From contig QHVT01000017.1 of assembly GCA_003223645.1 (NCBI GenBank), forward strand, positions 1 through 64,000: DNA of 64,000 nucleotides. The letters run 5' to 3'. The DNA is from Acidobacteriota bacterium (GTDB lineage Bacteria; Acidobacteriota; Thermoanaerobaculia; Gp7-AA8). The notes beneath the pieces are model-generated. The model was not told the DNA's origin, made no database searches, and saw only the letters and a program-made list of their open reading frames with translations. Below, piece by piece: positions 14,777 to 23,053 of the stretch (its first letter is position 1; every line of letters begins with the position of its first letter). The translations under genes were made by a program, and so were the position numbers.

Positions 14777-15358
14777 TCAACGTTCGCGCGTCTTCAACTC
14801 GTCGGCAACATCGCCCCACCCAATCCCCTCATCCACCATCAACACCGAAACATGAAACACGAGATCGGCGATCTCGCTGATCATCCTCTCCCGTCCCTGT
14901 CCTTTCGCCGCGATCACGACCTCGGTCGCTTCTTCGCCGATCTTCTTGAGAATCTTGTCGCGTCCTTCGTTGAACAGTCTCGCCGAGTACGATCCCTCGG
15001 GGCGCTTTGCTTTCCGATCGCGCAGGACGTTCATCAATCGATCGAGAAATGCCGGCGGGACATCCGCGAAGCAGGAGTCGGCGCCGGTGTGACATGCGGG
15101 GCCGTTCGGCTCGACGGTGACGACGATGGCGTCGCGGTCGCAGTCAGGAGCGATGTGCACGACTTTCTGCGTGTGGCCGGAGGTCGCGCCTTTGTGCCAC
15201 AACTCGTTGCGGCTGCGGCTCCAGAACCAGGTCTCGCCGCTGTCGATGGTTTTCTGCAGCGACTCTTCGTTCATGTAGGCGAGCGTGAGGATTGCGCCGT
15301 CTCGCGCGTCGCGCACGATCACGGGGATGAGGCCGTTCGTGAATTTCAAATCAGTCAT
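14777..15358 (-). CDS. hisIE: Bifunctional phosphoribosyl-AMP cyclohydrolase / phosphoribosyl-ATP diphosphatase
   Basis: 193-aa fused enzyme for histidine steps 2 and 3. The HisI part (about 1-105) has [24 protein letters not shown] and the Zn-site segments DCDRDA and CHTGADSCF. The HisE part (about 110-193) has the MazG-like helices with [15 protein letters not shown] and [13 protein letters not shown]. Length is usual for the fusion. The ATG at 15358 overlaps the stop of hisAF by 4 bp. An upstream extension in the same frame is antisense-like and not used. This is the last gene of the his operon. Confidence 0.95.
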
Positions 15359-16797
15359 CGCACGGGGATTCCTTCTGCTTCGAGGTGGCGTTTGACGTCG
15401 CCGACGGTGAGGACGCGGTCGTGAAAGAGTGACGCGGCGAGGACGGCACGCGCTCCGCCGGCTTCGATCGCGTCGCGGAAGTGATCGAGCGTGCCCGCGC
15501 CGCCGGAGGCGATGACGCCGATTTTCAGGACGCTCGTGGCGGCGCGGAGGAGCTCGATGTCGAAGCCGGAGTTCGTGCCGTCGCGATCGACGCTCGTCAG
15601 GAGAATCTCTCCCGCGCCGAGTTGCTCTCCGCGTTTGCACCATTCGATCGCGTCGAAGTTCGTCACTTCTTTGCCGCCGTGAACGGCGCACTGTCCGCCT
15701 TTCGCGTCGACGGAGAGGACGACGGCCTGCACGCCGAATTCGCGCGAGCATTCGGCGATGAGCTCGGGGCGGTGGAGGGCGGCGGTGTTGATGGCGACGC
15801 GGTCGGCGCCGGCGCGGAGCGTGTCGCGAAAGTCTTCGACGCTGCGGATGCCGCCGCCGACGGTGAGCGGGATGAAGATCGATTCGGCGACGCGGCGGAC
15901 GGTGTCGATCGATGAGCGGTCGCCGGCAATGTCGAGAATCACCAGCTCGTCCGCGCCTTCTTCTTCATAGCGCATGGCGCATTCGACCGGATCTCCGGCG
16001 TCACGGATGTTGACGAAAGAGACGCCTTTGACGACGCGGCCGGCGCGGACGTCGAGGCAGGGGATGACGCGCTCGGGGACGGCGTTCGATGCGGCGAGAC
16101 GCGCGCGCGCTTCATGCAAGTCGACGCGACGTTCGAGCAGCGCCTTGCCGATGACGCAGCCGCTCACGTTGCCGAGTCGCGCGAGCGAGATGACGTCGCT
16201 CGTTTGCGACACGCCGCCGGAGGCAATGATCTTCACGCGTGTCATCGCGTTGAGTTGACGGTAGAGCGCGAACGACGGACCGCGCAACGCGCCGTCTTTG
16301 GATATGTCGGTGACAAGCGCTTCGGGGATCGCGAGCGATTCGACGCGCGCGAAGATTTCGCGCATCGTGATGTTGGACTCGCGCGTCCAGCCGTCGGTGC
16401 GCACGACTCCGTCGCGCACGTCGATCGCAGGGACGATACGTTGCGGACCGAACGTCGTGACGAGTAGATCGAGGAGCGATGACGTTGCAGCAGTGCCGAC
16501 GACGATCCGCTCTGCTCCGCAATCAAGCCAGCGCTTCGCGTCGTCGAGCGAGCGGATCCCACCTCCGACCTGCACGATGAGATCGCGTCGCGCGAGGCGC
16601 CGCACGATGTCAGTCTCGATCGGCTTGCCGCTGCGCGACGCCTCGAGGTCGACGACGTGCAGTCGCGTGCCGCGCGGCACGTCGAGCGCGTCGAGCACTT
16701 CTTCCGCGTCCCCGTAGACCTTCGCCGTCGCGAAGTCGCCGTGCGTCAATCGCACGACGCGGCCGTGCAGCAGGTCGAGCGAGGGGATCAGTTCCAT
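15355..16797 (-). CDS. hisAF: Natural HisA-HisF fusion: ProFAR isomerase joined to IGP synthase cyclase subunit
   Basis: 480-aa single chain with two TIM barrels. Residues 1-236 are HisA: PSLDLLHG (catalytic Asp8), [19 protein letters not shown] (Asp126), VTDISKDG and IIASGGVS. Residues 243-480 are His[17 protein letters not shown] (Asp249), [26 protein letters not shown] (Asp364), [10 protein letters not shown] and VIASGGAG. Each half has near-normal length and all four catalytic Asp residues, so both reactions should work. Only about six residues separate the barrels, and there is no stop and no ATG or GTG at the junction (near 16071). HisH is separate and directly upstream. HisA and HisF are ancient duplicates, but they are normally separate proteins. 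Confidence 0.95.
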
Positions 16798-17420
16798 GCG
16801 ACGAAGTTCCGCAGCACGCGCAGTCCGGCGCGCGATGATTTCTCGGGGTGGAACTGCACGCCGAACACACGTCCCTGTTGCACGGCGGCGGTGAAGCGGC
16901 CGTTGTATTCGGCGGACGCGATCTCGCTCGCGGCGTCGCGCGCGGCGTAGGAGTTGACGAAGTAGAATGCAGTACCTTCATCGATGCCTTCGAACAGTGG
17001 AGGACAGGCAATCTTGCCTGTCCGGACAGGCAGGATTGCCTGTCCTCCGCTGACGCGATTCCATCCGATCTGTGGCACCGGCAGCGGACCTTCGAAGCGA
17101 TGCACTTCGCCGCGCAGGAGGCCGAGGCCGGGCGTGGTTCCCATCTCGTGCGAGGCATCGAAGAGGAGTTGGTGGCCGACGCAGATGCCGAGGAGCGACG
17201 CGCCGTTCGCGACGGCGGTGCGAATCGCGTGATCGATGCGCGTCTCGATCAGCCACGACATCGCGGCGCCGAAGCTGCCGACGCCGGGGAGCACGAGCTT
17301 CGATGCGCGCGCGATTGCATCCGCGTCACGCGTCACGTCGAGCGAAGCGCCGGTCGCGCGCAGCGCGCGCGCGATGTTCGCGACGTTGGCGACCGGCGAG
17401 TCGATGAGCGTCGTGTTCAC
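16788..17420 (-). CDS. hisH: Imidazole glycerol phosphate synthase glutaminase subunit
   Basis: 210-aa glutamine amidotransferase subunit that feeds ammonia to HisF. It has the PGVGSF motif, the nucleophile motif GICVGHQLL (Cys), and the catalytic His/Glu in GVQFHPEKSS. Starts with GTG at 17420, overlapping the hisB stop as GTGA, and its own end overlaps the hisAF start by 10 bp. Between PVPQIGWNRV and LFEGIDEG a palindromic element (16999-17048) adds about 17 residues (GGQAILPVRTGKIACPP) in frame. The position is an interdomain loop in the family, so the enzyme is probably still active. Confidence 0.94.
   Translation of the reverse strand: MNTTLIDSPVANVANIARALRATGASLDVTRDADAIARASKLVLPGVGSFGAAMSWLIETRIDHAIRTAVANGASLLGICVGHQLLFDASHEMGTTPGLGLLRGEVHRFEGPLPVPQIGWNRVSGGQAILPVRTGKIACPPLFEGIDEGTAFYFVNSYAARDAASEIASAEYNGRFTAAVQQGRVFGVQFHPEKSSRAGLRVLRNFVAWN
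16999..17048. repeat. Palindromic element, GGAGGACAGGCAATC family, inside hisH
   Basis: A near-perfect 50-bp palindrome: GGAGGACAGGCAATC at one end, GATTGCCTGTCCTCC at the other, and TTGCCTGTCCGGACAGGCAG in the middle. It is translated in frame in hisH. Confidence 0.92.
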
Positions 17421-18004
17421 AGCACGCCTTTCGTCGAAGGCACGTCACTCGTCACGATCTGTTTCGCTTCGCGCACCGCGATCGCGAATGCCTTGAAGAT
17501 TGCCTCGGCGGCGTGATGTCCGTTGCGTCCGCGAATGAGATCGATGTGGATGTTGCACGCGCACTTGTTCGCGAACGACTTGAAAAATTCTTCGACCAGT
17601 ACGAACGGAAAGTCTTTGTGGATGAGCAGCATCTCGCGATCCATCGGCACGTCGAAGACGAGATACGGGCGGCCGGCGAAGTCGACGACGACGCGGGCGA
17701 GCGCTTCGTCGAGAGGGACGTAGGCGTGGCCGAAGCGGCGGATGCCGCGCTTGTCGCCGAGTGCGGCGGCGAAGACTTCGCCGAAGACCAGGCCGACGTC
17801 TTCGACGGTGTGGTGATAGTCGATGAACGTGTCACCGGCGGCGCTGACGTCGAGATCGAGCTGGCCGTGGCGCGCAATCGCGTCGAGCATGTGCGAGAGG
17901 AAACCGATCGGCGTGTCGATCTCGGCGCGGCCGGTGCCGTCAACGTTGACCGTGATCTCGACGGAGGTTTCTTTCGTGGTGCGTGCGAGCGTGGCGGTTC
18001 TCAT
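17417..18004 (-). CDS. hisB: Imidazoleglycerol-phosphate dehydratase
   Basis: 195-aa monofunctional IGPD (no HisN phosphatase part), histidine step 6. The Mn-binding His/Glu motifs are present: GFLSHMLDAIARHG, DYHHTVEDVG, and RNGHHAAEAIFKAFA. The sequence begins MRTATLARTTKETSVEITVNVDG, as is usual. The start at 18004 overlaps the hisC stop by 4 bp. No insertion element is present. Residues DFPFVLVEEFFKSFA fit the family trimer core. Confidence 0.95.
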   Translation of the reverse strand: MRTATLARTTKETSVEITVNVDGTGRAEIDTPIGFLSHMLDAIARHGQLDLDVSAAGDTFIDYHHTVEDVGLVFGEVFAAALGDKRGIRRFGHAYVPLDEALARVVVDFAGRPYLVFDVPMDREMLLIHKDFPFVLVEEFFKSFANKCACNIHIDLIRGRNGHHAAEAIFKAFAIAVREAKQIVTSDVPSTKGVL

Positions 18005-19122
18005 TTCGTCTCCTGGAGTGCGGGCGTCTCGCCCGCCGCGGTCGGGCATCCTGGCCGGCCGCTGTCTTCGGCGCGTTTCTGGTCGCCGGGCGAGACGCCC
18101 GACGACTTGCGGGCGGGACGCCCGCACTCCTCCAATGCGGCGAGGAATGCGTCGTTCTCTTCGCGCGTGCCGATCGACACGCGGAGGAATGTCGCGTATT
18201 TGCGGATGAGGATTCCGCGCTCGAGAAAATCCTCGAACGCGGCGTTGCTGCGGAAGGCGATGAAGTTCGAGCGCGACGGAAACGCGGTCACGTGTTTCAT
18301 CGCGCGCATCGCGGCGAAGACGCGCTCGCGCTCGGCGATCAGGAACGCGACGTTCGTGTCGCGGTACGCGCGGTTCTCCAGCGCGAGCGCGGCGACGGTC
18401 TCGCTGATCACGTTGAGCGAGTAGGGGAGTTTCACTTTGCGAATCTCGCGGCACGTGGCGGCGGTCGACGCGAGCCAGCCGACGCGCAGCGCGGCGAGTC
18501 CCCACGCTTTCGAGAACGTGGAGAACGTGACGAGGCCATCGTGCAGCGGCGGCAGCTCGTCTTCGGCAAAGTCGCCGTACGCGCGGTCGAACAACACCGT
18601 TGCGCCGGTCGCGAGGAGTTGTGTGATGCCGTCGTCGGGCAGCACGCCGCCGGTCGGATTGTTCGGCGAGCAGACAATGACGACGGCGCCGCGCAGCGTC
18701 GACAACGCGTTCAGCATTTCGTCGAGCGGAAGCAGACCGGCGAGTGGATCGATGTCGATCGGGACGGGAAGTCCGCCGGCGACGGTGACGAGCTTCTCGT
18801 ACAGCGCGAACGTCGGCTTCGGGAAAACGACCGGCGTGCCGGGGCCGACGAACGTGCTGACCGTCGCGGCGAGCAGTTCGTTCGAGCCGTTGCCGACGAG
18901 GATGTTGTCCGCGGTGTAGCCGTACGCGCGCGCGAGCGTTTCGCGCAGCGTCGACGACTCGAAGTCGGGATAGCGATTCCATGCGCGCGCGGCCACGCGC
19001 GCGAGCGCTTCTTCCTTGAACGGAAAATCGAATGGCGACTCGTTCTGATTGAGCTTGTGCTCCGCCTCGCGCAGCTCGAGCGTGTATGCCGTCATCGCCG
19101 CAATCGTCGCGCGCGCGGTCAT
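18001..19122 (-). CDS. hisC: Histidinol-phosphate aminotransferase
   Basis: 373-aa PLP-dependent aminotransferase, histidine step 7. It shows KLNQNESPF, VGNGSNELL, CSPNNPTGG, the cofactor Lys in FSKAWGLAALRVGW, and the phosphate-binding LRVSIGTREEND. The normal fold ends near ALEECG; the last 40 or so residues (from about 331) are encoded by a palindromic element (18015-18130) and look unrelated to the family. The start ATG 19122 overlaps the hisD stop by 4 bp. Confidence 0.94.
   Translation of the reverse strand: MTARATIAAMTAYTLELREAEHKLNQNESPFDFPFKEEALARVAARAWNRYPDFESSTLRETLARAYGYTADNILVGNGSNELLAATVSTFVGPGTPVVFPKPTFALYEKLVTVAGGLPVPIDIDPLAGLLPLDEMLNALSTLRGAVVIVCSPNNPTGGVLPDDGITQLLATGATVLFDRAYGDFAEDELPPLHDGLVTFSTFSKAWGLAALRVGWLASTAATCREIRKVKLPYSLNVISETVAALALENRAYRDTNVAFLIAERERVFAAMRAMKHVTAFPSRSNFIAFRSNAAFEDFLERGILIRKYATFLRVSIGTREENDAFLAALEECGRPARKSSGVSPGDQKRAEDSGRPGCPTAAGETPALQETK
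18015..18130. repeat. Palindromic element, GGAGTGCGGGCGTC family, at hisC 3' end
   Basis: GGAGTGCGGGCGTCTCGCCC on one side and GGGCGGGACGCCCGCACTCC on the other, with further inner pairing. It is related to the GGAGAGCGGGCGTCCCGCCC family. It supplies the C-terminal tail of HisC. Confidence 0.88.
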
Positions 19123-20300
19123 GCGATCACCCCCACTCTCGCCTCGATCGACTTCGCGTGGTTCGGCAAGCCCTCGAAGTACGCGATGCGTGCGGCGGAC
19201 GCCCCGATCTCCTGCAGCGTCTCATCCGTCAGCGTGATGATGTTCGTGCGCTTGACGAAGTCGTAGACGCCGAGCGGCGAAAAGAAACGCGCGCTGCCCC
19301 CGGTCGGGAGCACGTGATTCGATCCCACCACATAGTCGCCCGCGGCTGCGGGCGACGACGGTCCGCAGTAAATCGCGCCGGCGTTGTTCACGCGATCCGC
19401 GATCGATGCCGCATCGCGCGCGTGAATCGACAAATGCTCGGGTGCGATTCGATCGGTGATCGCGACCGCCTCGTCGATCGTGTCGACGAGGTACATCTGC
19501 GACGCGCGCACATCGATGCGTGTGCCGATGCAGATGCACGTCACGACCGAGTCGGGGCCGTGCTCCTGCTGTGCGTCGAGATCCGCTTGAATGAAGTCGA
19601 CGTTCGCGGTGTCGTCGGCGATGACGACGAGCTCCGTCGGACCGGCCGTCATGTCGATGCCGACTTCGCCGACGAGGCGCGCCTTCGCCGCGGTCACGTA
19701 GGCGTTGCCGGGGCCGGCGATCTTATCGACGCGCGCGAGCGTGCTCGTGCCGAGGGCCATCGCCGCGATCGCCTGCGCGCCGCCGCTTTGATAAATCTCG
19801 CGGATGCCGAGGCGATTGCAGACGTAGTGCAGCTCATCGCGGGCGGCGACGGCGGGCGTCGTCGCGACGACGATCTCTTCGACGCCGGCGATGCGCGCGG
19901 GGACGGCGCACATGATCAGCGTCGAGACGTACACCGCGCGTCCACCGGGTACGTAGATGCCGACGCGTTTGAGCGGACGCACGCGATGCTGCACGCCCTG
20001 CCATTCGTACGACGACGGCATTTGCGGCCGGTGAAACGCGGTGACGCGCTCGATTGCGAGATCGAGTGCGCGCGCGAGAGGAGAGCGGGCGTCCCGCCCG
20101 CCCCCGGGAGGCGGGCATGATGCCCGCTCTCCTGCGATCTCGCGTGGCTCGATCAGAATCGCGTTCGGTGCGATGCGCACTCCGTCGAACCGCTCGATCT
20201 GTTCCGCCACGAACGCGTCTCCGCGCGCGCGAACGCCGGCGATCATTTCATCGGCCGTTGCAAAAACGGCATCTTCAGGCGATGGATTGGAGCTCGGCAT
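19119..20300 (-). CDS. hisD: Histidinol dehydrogenase
   Basis: 393-aa Zn- and NAD-dependent enzyme oxidising histidinol to histidine (last two steps). Motifs: VGIYVPGGRA, SGGAQAIAA, KIAGPGNAYV, TAGPTELVV, the Zn ligands in QQEHGPDS, APEHLSIH, AGDYVVGSNH and GLPNHAKS. The N-terminus is about 30 residues shorter than typical 430-aa enzymes. A palindromic element (20080-20132) is read in frame between EPREIA and ARALDLAIERV, coding for residues about 57-74. The ATG at 20300 lies inside the end of hisG (26-bp overlap). Confidence 0.95.
   Translation of the reverse strand: MPSSNPSPEDAVFATADEMIAGVRARGDAFVAEQIERFDGVRIAPNAILIEPREIAGERASCPPPGGGRDARSPLARALDLAIERVTAFHRPQMPSSYEWQGVQHRVRPLKRVGIYVPGGRAVYVSTLIMCAVPARIAGVEEIVVATTPAVAARDELHYVCNRLGIREIYQSGGAQAIAAMALGTSTLARVDKIAGPGNAYVTAAKARLVGEVGIDMTAGPTELVVIADDTANVDFIQADLDAQQEHGPDSVVTCICIGTRIDVRASQMYLVDTIDEAVAITDRIAPEHLSIHARDAASIADRVNNAGAIYCGPSSPAAAGDYVVGSNHVLPTGGSARFFSPLGVYDFVKRTNIITLTDETLQEIGASAARIAYFEGLPNHAKSIEARVGVIA
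20080..20132. repeat. Palindromic element, GGAGAGCGGGCGTCCC family, inside hisD
   Basis: GGAGAGCGGGCGTCCCGCCC at one end and its reverse complement at the other, 53 bp in total. Other copies are at 38201-38254 and 56146-56198, and all three are almost identical. Translated as GERASCPPPGGGRDARSP. Confidence 0.93.
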
Positions 20301-20907
20301 TTTTCGCTTCCTCGATGCGCGCGATCAGCGCGCGGATCTGCTGGTTGTTCGTGCGATAGACGTTCTTCGAGACAATGAGCCGCGGCGTGATCTCCGCGAC
20401 GAAGTCCTGCATCTCCAGCTTGTGCACCCGCGCCGTCTCGCCGGTCTCGACGAGATCGATCACATGCGTCGTGAGATTGAGGACCGCCGCCAATTCGACG
20501 GAGCCGCCGAGGGGGATGATCTCGGCGCGAAGGCCGCGCGAGTCGAGAAACTGGCGCGAGACGCGCGGATACTTTGTGGCGATGCGCGCGTCGTTCGCGA
20601 GCCGCGGCGCACCGGGCGCGCCGATGACCATCATCCGGCAGCGTCCGTACGGCAGCTCGACCGGCTGATACGCGCTGCATTCATGCTCCAGGATTTGATC
20701 GAGTCCCGCGACTCCCGCGTCGGCGGCGCCGTGCTCGACGTACACCGGCACGTCGCAGTCCTTCACGAAAATCCACTCGATGCCGCCGCGCGTGAACACG
20801 AGCTTGCGCGTGTGCAGGTCCGCATCGTCCGGCACTTCGTAGCCCGCGGTGGCGAACGTCGCGAGCACTTTGTCCTGCAGTCGCCCTTTTGGAATTGCGA
20901 TTCGCAT
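20275..20907 (-). CDS. hisG: ATP phosphoribosyltransferase, short form
   Basis: 210-aa HisG_S catalytic subunit that joins ATP and PRPP in the first histidine step. It begins MRIAIPKGRL and has DAGVAGLDQILE, the PRPP-binding region near IIPLGGSVELA and VIDLVETGETAR. The C-terminal ACT-like regulatory domain of long HisG is absent, so it needs HisZ for activity and feedback control; hisZ is directly upstream with a 2-bp gap. No palindrome interrupts this gene. Confidence 0.95.
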   Translation of the reverse strand: MRIAIPKGRLQDKVLATFATAGYEVPDDADLHTRKLVFTRGGIEWIFVKDCDVPVYVEHGAADAGVAGLDQILEHECSAYQPVELPYGRCRMMVIGAPGAPRLANDARIATKYPRVSRQFLDSRGLRAEIIPLGGSVELAAVLNLTTHVIDLVETGETARVHKLEMQDFVAEITPRLIVSKNVYRTNNQQIRALIARIEEAKNAELQSIA

Positions 20908-20909
20908 AG

Positions 20910-21677
20910 TTAGTCCAGATCGTCGATGGTGAAGGTGAAACCGATCGCGGGTGCGTCGGCTCCGAAGCGTGAATACAGGGAGTCGTAGCGCCCGCCTTGC
21001 GCAATCGGCTTGCGGCGGTCGTCGCCGTACACCCAGAAGCGCAGGCCGGTGTAGTAGCTGCTTGGGTCGGCTTCGTCCTGTTCGTGGTAGACGAAGCGCG
21101 CGTCATTTTCGAGAAGAGATGGCAGATGGCGGACGGCGGATGGCGGAGACGAGTCGGCATCGGCACTTTTGCCATCTGCCATCTGCCATCCGCCATCCGT
21201 GTAAACGACCAACGCGTTCTCGAAAAACTCCGACGCAATTGCGGCTGCGAGTCGCAGCATCGCGATGTCCGCTTCGCTCGACGCATCGCCGATGATCTCC
21301 GCGCCGATCTGGAACATCTCGCGATTCGCACCGAGTCGCGTCGCGTCGCAGCGGATCACATCGCCGCGATAGAAGACGCGCAGCGGCAGTTCGCTCTCAG
21401 GCAGCGCGGGAGCGAGTGCGCGCGCAACCATCGGCGTGAAGTCGGATCGGATCGCGACCAGCTCTCCTTCGCGATCGGTGAATCGATAGCTTTGCCGCGC
21501 CGACTCCCGTCCCGTTACTCCCGCGTACGGCTCGGCGAAGTCGATGATCGGCAATACGACTTCGGCGAAGCCGTTGCCTTCGAGCAGCGCGACGAAGCGC
21601 GACTCGATGCGCCTCCGCCGCGCCGTCTCTTCAATGAGCAGCGGCCTCGCTCCGGTTGGATATCTCGTTTTTCCCAT
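20910..21677 (-). CDS. hisZ: ATP phosphoribosyltransferase regulatory subunit
   Basis: 255-aa class II aminoacyl-tRNA-synthetase paralogue that activates and regulates short HisG. Visible blocks: LPIIDFAEPY, RSDFTPMVAR, PLRVFYRGDVIR (motif 2), YYTGLRFWVY and QGGRYDSLYSRFG. It is shorter than typical HisZ (about 320-390 aa) and lacks most of the C-terminal region. A palindromic element (21119-21199) is read in frame after LVVYTDGG, coding for residues about 160-186. Its start codon follows a terminator hairpin that also contains the GGGAAGAGG ribosome-binding sequence. Confidence 0.9.
   Translation of the reverse strand: MGKTRYPTGARPLLIEETARRRRIESRFVALLEGNGFAEVVLPIIDFAEPYAGVTGRESARQSYRFTDREGELVAIRSDFTPMVARALAPALPESELPLRVFYRGDVIRCDATRLGANREMFQIGAEIIGDASSEADIAMLRLAAAIASEFFENALVVYTDGGWQMADGKSADADSSPPSAVRHLPSLLENDARFVYHEQDEADPSSYYTGLRFWVYGDDRRKPIAQGGRYDSLYSRFGADAPAIGFTFTIDDLD
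21119..21199. repeat. Palindromic element, GGCAGATGGC family, inside hisZ
   Basis: GATGGCAGATGGCGGACGGC on one side, GCCATCTGCCATCCGCCATC on the other. It is translated in frame as a His/Ser/Pro-rich loop in HisZ. The two other copies (1507, 46763) lie between genes. Confidence 0.9.
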
Positions 21678-21683
21678 AAAGCC

Positions 21684-21713
21684 AAAAACCTCTTCCCGCT
21701 GGAGGAAGAGGCT
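21684..21713 (-). terminator. his attenuator terminator hairpin
   Basis: On the minus strand CCTCTTCC (21711-21704) pairs with GGAAGAGG (21696-21689) and is followed by TTTTT. It lies between the His-rich leader peptide and hisZ. A second hairpin, with GCGCCCC and GGGGCGC arms, lies upstream at about 21736-21767 and could be the pause or competing structure. GGGAAGAGG in the 3' arm is also the only ribosome-binding sequence before hisZ. Confidence 0.8.
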
Positions 21714-21778
21714 TCGACTTCTCGCGCGATTCGTCGTGCGCCCCTTCCTTTCGGCGGGGCGCGTGTGGACCTACACCC

Positions 21779-21829
21779 CTACCGTTGATGGTGGTGGTGA
21801 TGGTGCCGGTGCGCGCGGGTAATGTTCAT
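21779..21829 (-). CDS. hisL: his operon leader peptide
   Basis: A 16-residue peptide, MNITRAHRHHHHHHQR, ending in TAG, with seven His codons of which six are consecutive. It lies 100 nt before hisZ and is followed by a hairpin and then a U-tracted terminator. This is the architecture of classical histidine attenuation: shortage of charged tRNA-His stalls the ribosome in the His run and prevents the terminator. The gene is far too short for ordinary gene finders. The ATG at 21829 follows a TAGACT hexamer by 10 nt and has no Shine-Dalgarno. The match to the established enterobacterial mechanism is by architecture, not by sequence identity. Confidence 0.88.
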   Translation of the reverse strand: MNITRAHRHHHHHHQR

Positions 21830-21839
21830 TTGCGTGTGC

Positions 21840-21845
21840 AGTCTA
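21840..21845 (-). promoter_or_regulatory. Putative -10 element for the his operon
   Basis: Minus-strand TAGACT, 10 nt before the hisL ATG. It lies only 3 bp from the tyrS -10-like element on the other strand, so the two promoters would overlap back to back. Confidence 0.45.
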
Positions 21846-21862: not shown

Positions 21863-23053
21863 ATGACTCTCGACGAGCAACTGGCCTACCTCGCCAAAGG
21901 CGCGGTCGACCTCATCGAAAAGAACGATCTCAAAACGAAAATTTCCCGCGGCAAGCCGCTCACGATCAAGGTCGGATTCGATCCGACCGCGCCCGACATC
22001 CACCTCGGACACACGGTCCTGATGCGCAAGATGCGTCATTTCCAGCAGCTCGGGCATCGCGTGATTTTTCTGATCGGCGACTTCACCGGTCTGATCGGCG
22101 ATCCCACCGGCAAGAAGACGACGCGTCCCGCGCTGACGAAAGAGGAAGTGCTGCAGAACGCGGAGACGTACCGCAAGCAGGTCTACAAAATTCTCGATCC
22201 CGTGAAGACGGAGATCCGCTTCAACTCCGAATGGCTCGGCGCCCTCGGAGCGGAAGGAATGGTGCGCCTCGCGGCGAAGTACACGCTCGCGCGCATGCTC
22301 GAGCGCGACGATTTCAAGAAGCGCTTTCAGTCGCAGCAGCCGATCGCGATTCACGAGCTGCTCTATCCGCTCGCGCAGGCCTACGACTCCGTCGCGCTGC
22401 AGTGCGACGTCGAGCTGGGCGGCACCGATCAGCTGTTCAATCTGCTCGTCGGACGCGATCTCATGCGCGAGTACGGACTCGAGCCGCAGTGCGTGCTGAC
22501 GACGCCGCTCCTCGAAGGACTCGACGGCGTCGAGAAGATGTCGAAGTCCCTCGGCAATTACATCGGCATCAACGAAGAGCCGTCGCAGATTTTCGGCAAG
22601 GTGATGTCGATCTCGGACGACTTGATGTGGAAGTACTACCTGCTCTGCACCGACCTCGCGCCGTCGGAAATCGAGAGCATCAAAACGTCATCGCATCCGA
22701 TGGATGCGAAGAAACAACTCGCGAAAACGATCATCCGCGACTTTCACGGCGATGAAGCCGCGGACGCGGCGGAGGCGGAGTTCCGGCGCGTGTTCAGCGA
22801 GCGGCAAATACCGACGGATCTCGAAGAGAAGTCATTGCCCGCTTCTCATGAACCGCAGTTGCTGGCCAAAGTGATCACGCTCGCAGGACTCGCGGAGTCG
22901 AACAAAGACGCGCAGCGCTTGATCGCGCAAGGCGGCGTGCTGGTGGATGACGTGAAGGTCGATTCGACGCGGCACGCGCTCGACGCGAGCGCGGGGCGGA
23001 GCTATCTGTTGAAGGTGGGGAAGCGGCGGTTCGCGAAAATTACGTTTGCGTAG
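21863..23053 (+). CDS. tyrS: Tyrosyl-tRNA synthetase
   Basis: 396-aa class I aminoacyl-tRNA synthetase. The HIGH-type signature is DIHLGHTVLMRK, the KMSKS loop is EKMSKSLGNYIG, and the tyrosine-binding region includes LYPLAQAYDSVALQCDVELGGTDQ. The C-terminal S4-like RNA-binding domain (about 335-396) has AQRLIAQGGVLVDD. Length and domain order fit the TyrZ-like bacterial subgroup. It is divergent from the his operon with only 33 bp between the hisL start and its own start. Confidence 0.97.
   Translation: MTLDEQLAYLAKGAVDLIEKNDLKTKISRGKPLTIKVGFDPTAPDIHLGHTVLMRKMRHFQQLGHRVIFLIGDFTGLIGDPTGKKTTRPALTKEEVLQNAETYRKQVYKILDPVKTEIRFNSEWLGALGAEGMVRLAAKYTLARMLERDDFKKRFQSQQPIAIHELLYPLAQAYDSVALQCDVELGGTDQLFNLLVGRDLMREYGLEPQCVLTTPLLEGLDGVEKMSKSLGNYIGINEEPSQIFGKVMSISDDLMWKYYLLCTDLAPSEIESIKTSSHPMDAKKQLAKTIIRDFHGDEAADAAEAEFRRVFSERQIPTDLEEKSLPASHEPQLLAKVITLAGLAESNKDAQRLIAQGGVLVDDVKVDSTRHALDASAGRSYLLKVGKRRFAKITFA

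Follow-up and report, generated by a model that had tools for sequence, protein, structure and literature searches.

Upstream of a histidine operon headed by hisZ, the 64,000-nucleotide stretch of Acidobacteriota DNA analysed here (the window) carries a short His-rich open reading frame followed by GC-rich hairpins, raising the question of whether the two together form a histidine-responsive switch and, if so, whether it acts on transcription, on translation or on both. The operon consists of eight ORFs on the minus strand, the first of which is hisZ (20910–21677; 255 amino acids; TIGR00443, E 9e-49, below the curated cutoff), followed by hisG, hisD, hisC, hisB, hisH, a hisA–hisF fusion and hisIE (14777–20907). 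A 185-bp gap separates hisZ from the divergent tyrS gene (21863–23053, plus strand). Residues ~155–198 of HisZ are an in-frame insert matching a repeat that is present at about 30 places in the same genome. The fused hisA and hisF form a single 480-residue ORF (15355–16797, minus strand), with HisA at residues 3–229 and HisF at residues 242–480; in the relative L031, the hisA frame likewise continues into HisF sequence at the end of the locus. HisZ of L031, which apparently lies on the same contig as G015:C196, is 56% identical to the window HisZ over the best segment.

The leader ORF, MNITRAHRHHHHHHQR, occupies 21779–21829 of the minus strand and comprises 16 codons (ATG AAC ATT ACC CGC GCG CAC CGG CAC CAT CAC CAC CAC CAT CAA CGG TAG, read from 21829 to 21779). 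The seven His codons that the sequence-only reading had reported are there on direct reading, at positions 7 and 9–14. Among 707 ORFs of 8–40 codons scanned in the window, the runner-up has 5 His codons, and in Markov-shuffled windows (n = 20) the maximum per short ORF never exceeded 6; the scan itself took an in-frame upstream TTG start, and the leader ORF was scored there with 9 His. The seven-His leader is not a chance occurrence in this window. The RNA of the leader folds with a z-score of −5.5 relative to shuffled sequences.

Six segments, A to F, define the alternative pairings of the leader RNA, all on the minus strand. Segment A, the His-codon region of the leader, can pair with segment B (GGGGUGU, 21773–21779), which overlaps the final base of the stop codon and has segment C (GCGCCCC, 21756–21762) as its alternative, antiterminator partner. 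Segment D (GGAAGGGGCGC, 21738–21748) pairs either with C, in the terminator state, or with segment E (GCCUCUUCC, 21704–21712; GCCTCTTCC as DNA) through 9 bp in the antiterminator state. The 7-bp GC hairpin described earlier is accurate, with GCGCCCC at 21762–21756 and its partner GGGGCGC at 21744–21738. Segment E is the 5′ arm of the terminator and segment F (GGGAAGAGG, 21689–21697) its 3′ arm; the latter is also the sole Shine–Dalgarno (SD)-like sequence ahead of hisZ, in agreement with the earlier proposal that one arm serves as both terminator and ribosome-binding site. A tract of five T (21684–21688) follows directly, and then GGCTTTATG. Computed energies are −18.9 kcal/mol for the C:D hairpin (z −3.6 versus shuffles) and −24.4 kcal/mol for the terminator hairpin (z −5.3), which a pattern-based terminator scan did not list, probably because the stem reaches into the T-run through A–T and G–T pairs.

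The two sets of pairings, B:C with D:E (antiterminator) and C:D with E:F (terminator), are mutually exclusive and constitute the classical wiring of his attenuators. Folded alone, the window RNA from the stop codon to segment E adopts B:C and D:E. With B free, the computed energy is −40.0 kcal/mol for B:C and D:E versus −31.9 kcal/mol for C:D, favouring the antiterminator by 8.1 kcal/mol; with B covered, C:D (−24.6 kcal/mol) is ahead of D:E (−23.8 kcal/mol) by 0.8 kcal/mol and also forms first. The segments are placed such that a stalled ribosome could make this choice: with its 3′ edge set 12 nt beyond the A-site codon's first base, the established toeprint distance, a ribosome at His codons 7–13 leaves B free and one at codon 14 touches two B bases, and B is covered once the ribosome stands at the stop codon. 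When the D arm of the window was tested against foreign E arms, no foreign arm paired as well. The same swap across the class set gave means of −14.4 kcal/mol for D:E versus −12.2 kcal/mol for foreign arms, a modest separation attributable to GC-rich arms and to automatic misassignment of some E:F hairpins, and D:E pairing was not recovered by automatic folds in families f7, f8, f12, f13 and f18. Because the class-wide separation is modest, claims about the antiterminator are restricted to the family of the window (f1).

We consider it very probable that the locus is a ribosome-mediated, His-responsive attenuator of hisZ-G-D-C-B-H-AF-IE, with the six-segment wiring described above and a leaderless or near-leaderless leader ORF. 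With ample charged tRNA-His, the ribosome would reach the stop codon and its footprint would cover B; C:D and E:F would then pair, transcription would tend to end at the T-tract, and in any read-through message the SD-like segment F would be locked inside the hairpin. When charged tRNA-His is scarce, the ribosome would stall on His codons 7–13 with its 3′ edge short of B, and B:C and D:E would be paired before F is made, so that no terminator would form and F would be left largely free as the hisZ ribosome-binding site. In the computed folds, the GAGG of the SD has an unpaired probability of 0.71 when the antiterminator forms, compared with 0.00 when the terminator does. Counting against the model are the long 11-nt spacing between GAGG and the hisZ ATG (21677), a T-tract of only five T and a window promoter that has no −35 match, along with the modest class-wide D:E separation, the C:D fold of G012 and the missing leader of G006.

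Relatives, which the sequence-only reading had proposed to compare as a possible refutation, retain the His codons as well as the hairpins. A His-run leader with the window layout precedes hisZ in 10 of the 11 f1 genomes that have a complete hisZ upstream region; the leaders of the other nine include MNTTGSSRTHHHHHHVM, MNTDFAHTWHHHHHHVM and MSTNFVQQHHHHHI. The remaining genome, G006 (L171), lacks the leader, and there tyrS is not divergent but precedes hisZ in the same orientation. The final His codon lies 1–2 codons ahead of the stop codon, and CAC (40) and CAT (22) interchange while His itself is kept, which points to selection on codon meaning. TAGGGGTGC, covering the B region, GYGCCCC and GGGGCGC are almost invariant across the f1 his leaders, and the terminator stem varies by paired substitutions (CCTCTTC/GAAGAGG, CCCCTTC/GAAGGGG and CCTCCTC/GAGGAGG). 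Folded alone from the stop codon to E, nine of the ten leaders form B:C and nine form D:E (one of them partially); in G012 the fold retains C:D. All the comparative tests available show the attenuator to be real, and its mechanism is inferred; the earlier claim of His attenuation of a HisZ-type operon is thus strongly supported.

At which level the output hairpin acts can be approached from its T-run and its SD-like sequence. In the window, the T-tract is modest (TTTTTGGCTTT), with only five T and an interruption by GG, and T-runs are lost or shortened in f7 and f8 relatives, as would be expected if the leader governed access to the hisZ SD only and the T-tract terminated little. Such purely translational attenuation is nevertheless unlikely, as a run of 4–6 T is kept right after the stem in all ten his leaders of the window’s family, and an operon of eight ORFs would gain little from control of its first gene alone. 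Purely transcriptional attenuation, as in the enterobacterial his operon, would instead make the overlap of terminator and SD an economy of space that has no regulatory meaning; the hairpin and T-tract are present in the window, and in many other Acidobacteriota families, f25 among them, terminator and SD lie apart. We regard this second alternative as possible, though clearly the less probable reading beside attenuation at both levels, since the SD-in-terminator layout recurs in most class families examined despite quite different stems and several f7 and f8 loci retain an SD hairpin without a usable T-run. In f1, and in those families read in which aroDE and hisZ are joined, the final hairpin carries the SD-like sequence in its 3′ arm; the SD-bearing stems differ between class families (GAAGAGG, GAGGGGG, AAGGAGG and GGGGAGG), and the class-wide overlap was judged from individual loci rather than counted systematically. 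In the f1 his leaders, hisZ starts ~10–11 nt past the start of the T-run in nine of ten cases; in G004 (L011) it starts further downstream, and the overlap is lost there. Loci L084, L086, L087 and L097 of f8 and f7 have an SD-containing hairpin (for example ACCTCCTTCCGGATCGAAGGAGGT) that has no clear T-run, and are possibly a purely translational variant. The position of the SD in the terminator arm, together with T-run loss in relatives, favours an added translational layer. The suggestion of dual transcriptional and translational control made from the window alone thus gains from the computed SD accessibility and from SD hairpins with absent or short T-runs, and stays tentative.

The promoter of the leader bears on how the sensing ORF may be translated. 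A −10 element, TAGACT, preceded by TG (TGC TAGACT, an extended −10), lies at 21840–21845 on the minus strand, 10 nt short of the leader ATG. No −35 match was found upstream, where the start of tyrS occupies the expected site, and a sigma-70 consensus scan of the window returned no promoter, so we infer the strength of the window promoter. Relatives have TACACT or TAGACT at the same position, with TTGACA 17–18 nt further upstream; the general layout across the leaders is TTGACA, 16–18 nt (typically 17), TAnnnT and, usually after another 6–12 nt with a mode of 9, the start codon. In its strict TTGACA/TAnnnT form this layout was found in 43 of 74 leaders, compared with 11 of 14,800 shuffled sequences. 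If transcription starts 6–8 nt past the −10 element, the 5′ untranslated region would measure ~0–4 nt and leave no space for an SD, and the window leader transcript is probably leaderless or nearly so, a prediction resting on the distance from −10 element to start codon, which is 10 nt in the window and most often 9 nt in relatives. The layout is not universal, as in f7, f8, f12, f13, f16 and f18 the distance is longer or no promoter was recognised in the 110 nt examined.

A covariance model built from the ten f1 his leaders recovered, as second-tier matches within f1, Tyr/Phe-rich leaders and Trp leaders. In the window’s own genome, a Tyr/Phe leader (MFLRAYYYGFYT) that shares the hairpin layout lies at G000:C6:56450–56620 (L060). 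The genes behind the Tyr/Phe leader encode DAHP synthase (Pfam) and a protein read by eye as chorismate mutase. Trp leaders (MNAPRNSWWYRRA, WWWHGRR and, in a genome of the same order, MARPVPFTAHGWWNEL) precede aroDE, a dehydroquinase–shikimate dehydrogenase fusion (Pfam). As read from these loci, the repeated amino acid matches the product of the pathway, Tyr/Phe on DAHP synthase and Trp on aroDE. No aroDE attenuator was found in the window’s own genome by covariance-model search and inspection, and low-scoring matches there (L105–L107, L110 and L113) had no leader peptide by eye. Several matches outside f1 in the phylum were rejected as leaders, having the appearance of ordinary terminators, and loci cut off by contig ends (L054, L059 and L046) were left out.

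His-rich peptides can bind metals, and the ORF could in principle encode a functional peptide of that kind, or be coding by chance, rather than a leader peptide. This is very improbable: the repeated residue follows the downstream operon (His, Trp, Tyr/Phe or mixed), the position of the run is fixed relative to the stop codon and the hairpins, and the peptide sequence outside the run is not conserved among relatives. In the order of the window, his and aroDE form separate operons, the former with a His leader and the latter with a Trp-weighted one, whereas in sister families of the class hisZ lies directly behind aroDE, its start codon overlapping or adjoining the aroDE stop codon. Mixed Trp and His leaders precede the joined aroDE–hisZ genes (MFLTSWHWHWHHG, MRRFQVRWHWHHG, MILVSRHWHAHHN, WWHGVHHHGDF and MRIETRRHHHHWHWTVRR), and one, MNAMGYRTYGHWYWFHTPERR, holds Tyr and Phe besides Trp and His. 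Over the last 14 codons, joined-operon leaders average 3.3 His and 1.8 Trp, with both residues in 20 of 21, compared with 6.2 His and 0.3 Trp per leader for his-only leaders (f1) and 1.25 His and 2.25 Trp for aroDE-only leaders (four members). His is present in three of the four aroDE-only leaders and a single Trp in three of the ten his-only leaders; the split is therefore one of weighting rather than absolute. In f16, the leader lies directly before hisZ with no aroDE, and Trp is still present in one genome (L156).

Elsewhere in the phylum, a His-rich short ORF was found on the sense strand upstream of hisG in all 30 best-matching loci from other Acidobacteriota families (controls: antisense, 0 of 30; downstream, 1 of 30), although these loci are the best matches to a HisG query from another family, with f25 over-represented, and so are no survey of the whole phylum. 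Most of the 30 leaders show the same promoter spacing, and at these loci the terminator frequently lies apart from the SD. The His-leader switch apparently recurs in many Acidobacteriota families and has so far gone unannotated in the phylum. A probable leaderless start, siblings on aromatic operons, mixed Trp/His leaders and spread through the phylum would be what this comparison adds to the sequence-only reading.

A wider proposal, for and against which we hold the case to be evenly balanced, is that a phylum-wide set of leaderless leader-peptide attenuators exists, in which, within the class of the window, an interleaved Trp/His leader on a joined shikimate–histidine operon would turn both pathways on when either amino acid is short, separate operons would each carry a leader weighted to a single amino acid, and the output hairpin would serve, according to lineage, as a terminator, as an SD lock or in both roles. 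This would extend leader-peptide attenuation of amino-acid genes to a large phylum with no previously described example in the papers searched, and these leaders suggest a sensing ORF that can be leaderless as a rule. The natural series of mixed and single leaders, joined and separate operons, and terminators and SD locks could inform on how the sensor and output of attenuators evolve.

No Rfam family, RF00514 (His_leader) and T-box included, matched the window leader at gathering threshold, and the best match in a relaxed search was sub-threshold (Thr_leader, 28.3 bits versus a cutoff of 55). The open-access papers searched yielded no account of a His attenuator from Acidobacteriota or of leaders that combine Trp with His codons. 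In the enterobacterial hisL, a leader ORF with a His run lies just upstream of alternative A–F pairings and a terminator that precedes the his operon. The window resembles hisL (RF00514) in its His-run ORF, alternative A–F pairings, predicted terminator and downstream his operon, and differs in its probable leaderless start, the SD inside the terminator arm, hisZ as the first gene and the host phylum. Multivalent leaders, each of which senses several amino acids through its codons, are known from ilvGMEDA and thrABC; the joined-operon leaders would share this multi-amino-acid reading, here of Trp and His on a joined shikimate–histidine operon.

The earlier remark that His leader attenuation is best known in Gammaproteobacteria is right, and comparative work has already placed His leaders at hisZ and hisS* in bacilli (PMC2965389) and before the his operons of other Firmicutes (PMC9413887); these share with the window the His run before hisZ or his and differ in host phylum. 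The Sinorhizobium meliloti rnTrpL/trpL transcript starts at the ATG of the leader ORF and thus specifies a leaderless leader peptide (PMC7298713), a feature that the window would share, although trpL senses Trp and belongs to Alphaproteobacteria. In mycobacteria, a genus rich in leaderless transcripts, Cys-rich short ORFs are proposed attenuators (PMC4633059); a cluster of the sensed codon in a short ORF is common to both, with cysteine and Actinobacteria in their case. In attenuators that sequester the ribosome-binding site, the hairpin alternative to the antiterminator conceals that of the first gene (PMC9413887), whereas in the window a single hairpin might act as terminator and SD lock alike, and in some f7 and f8 relatives as an SD lock only.
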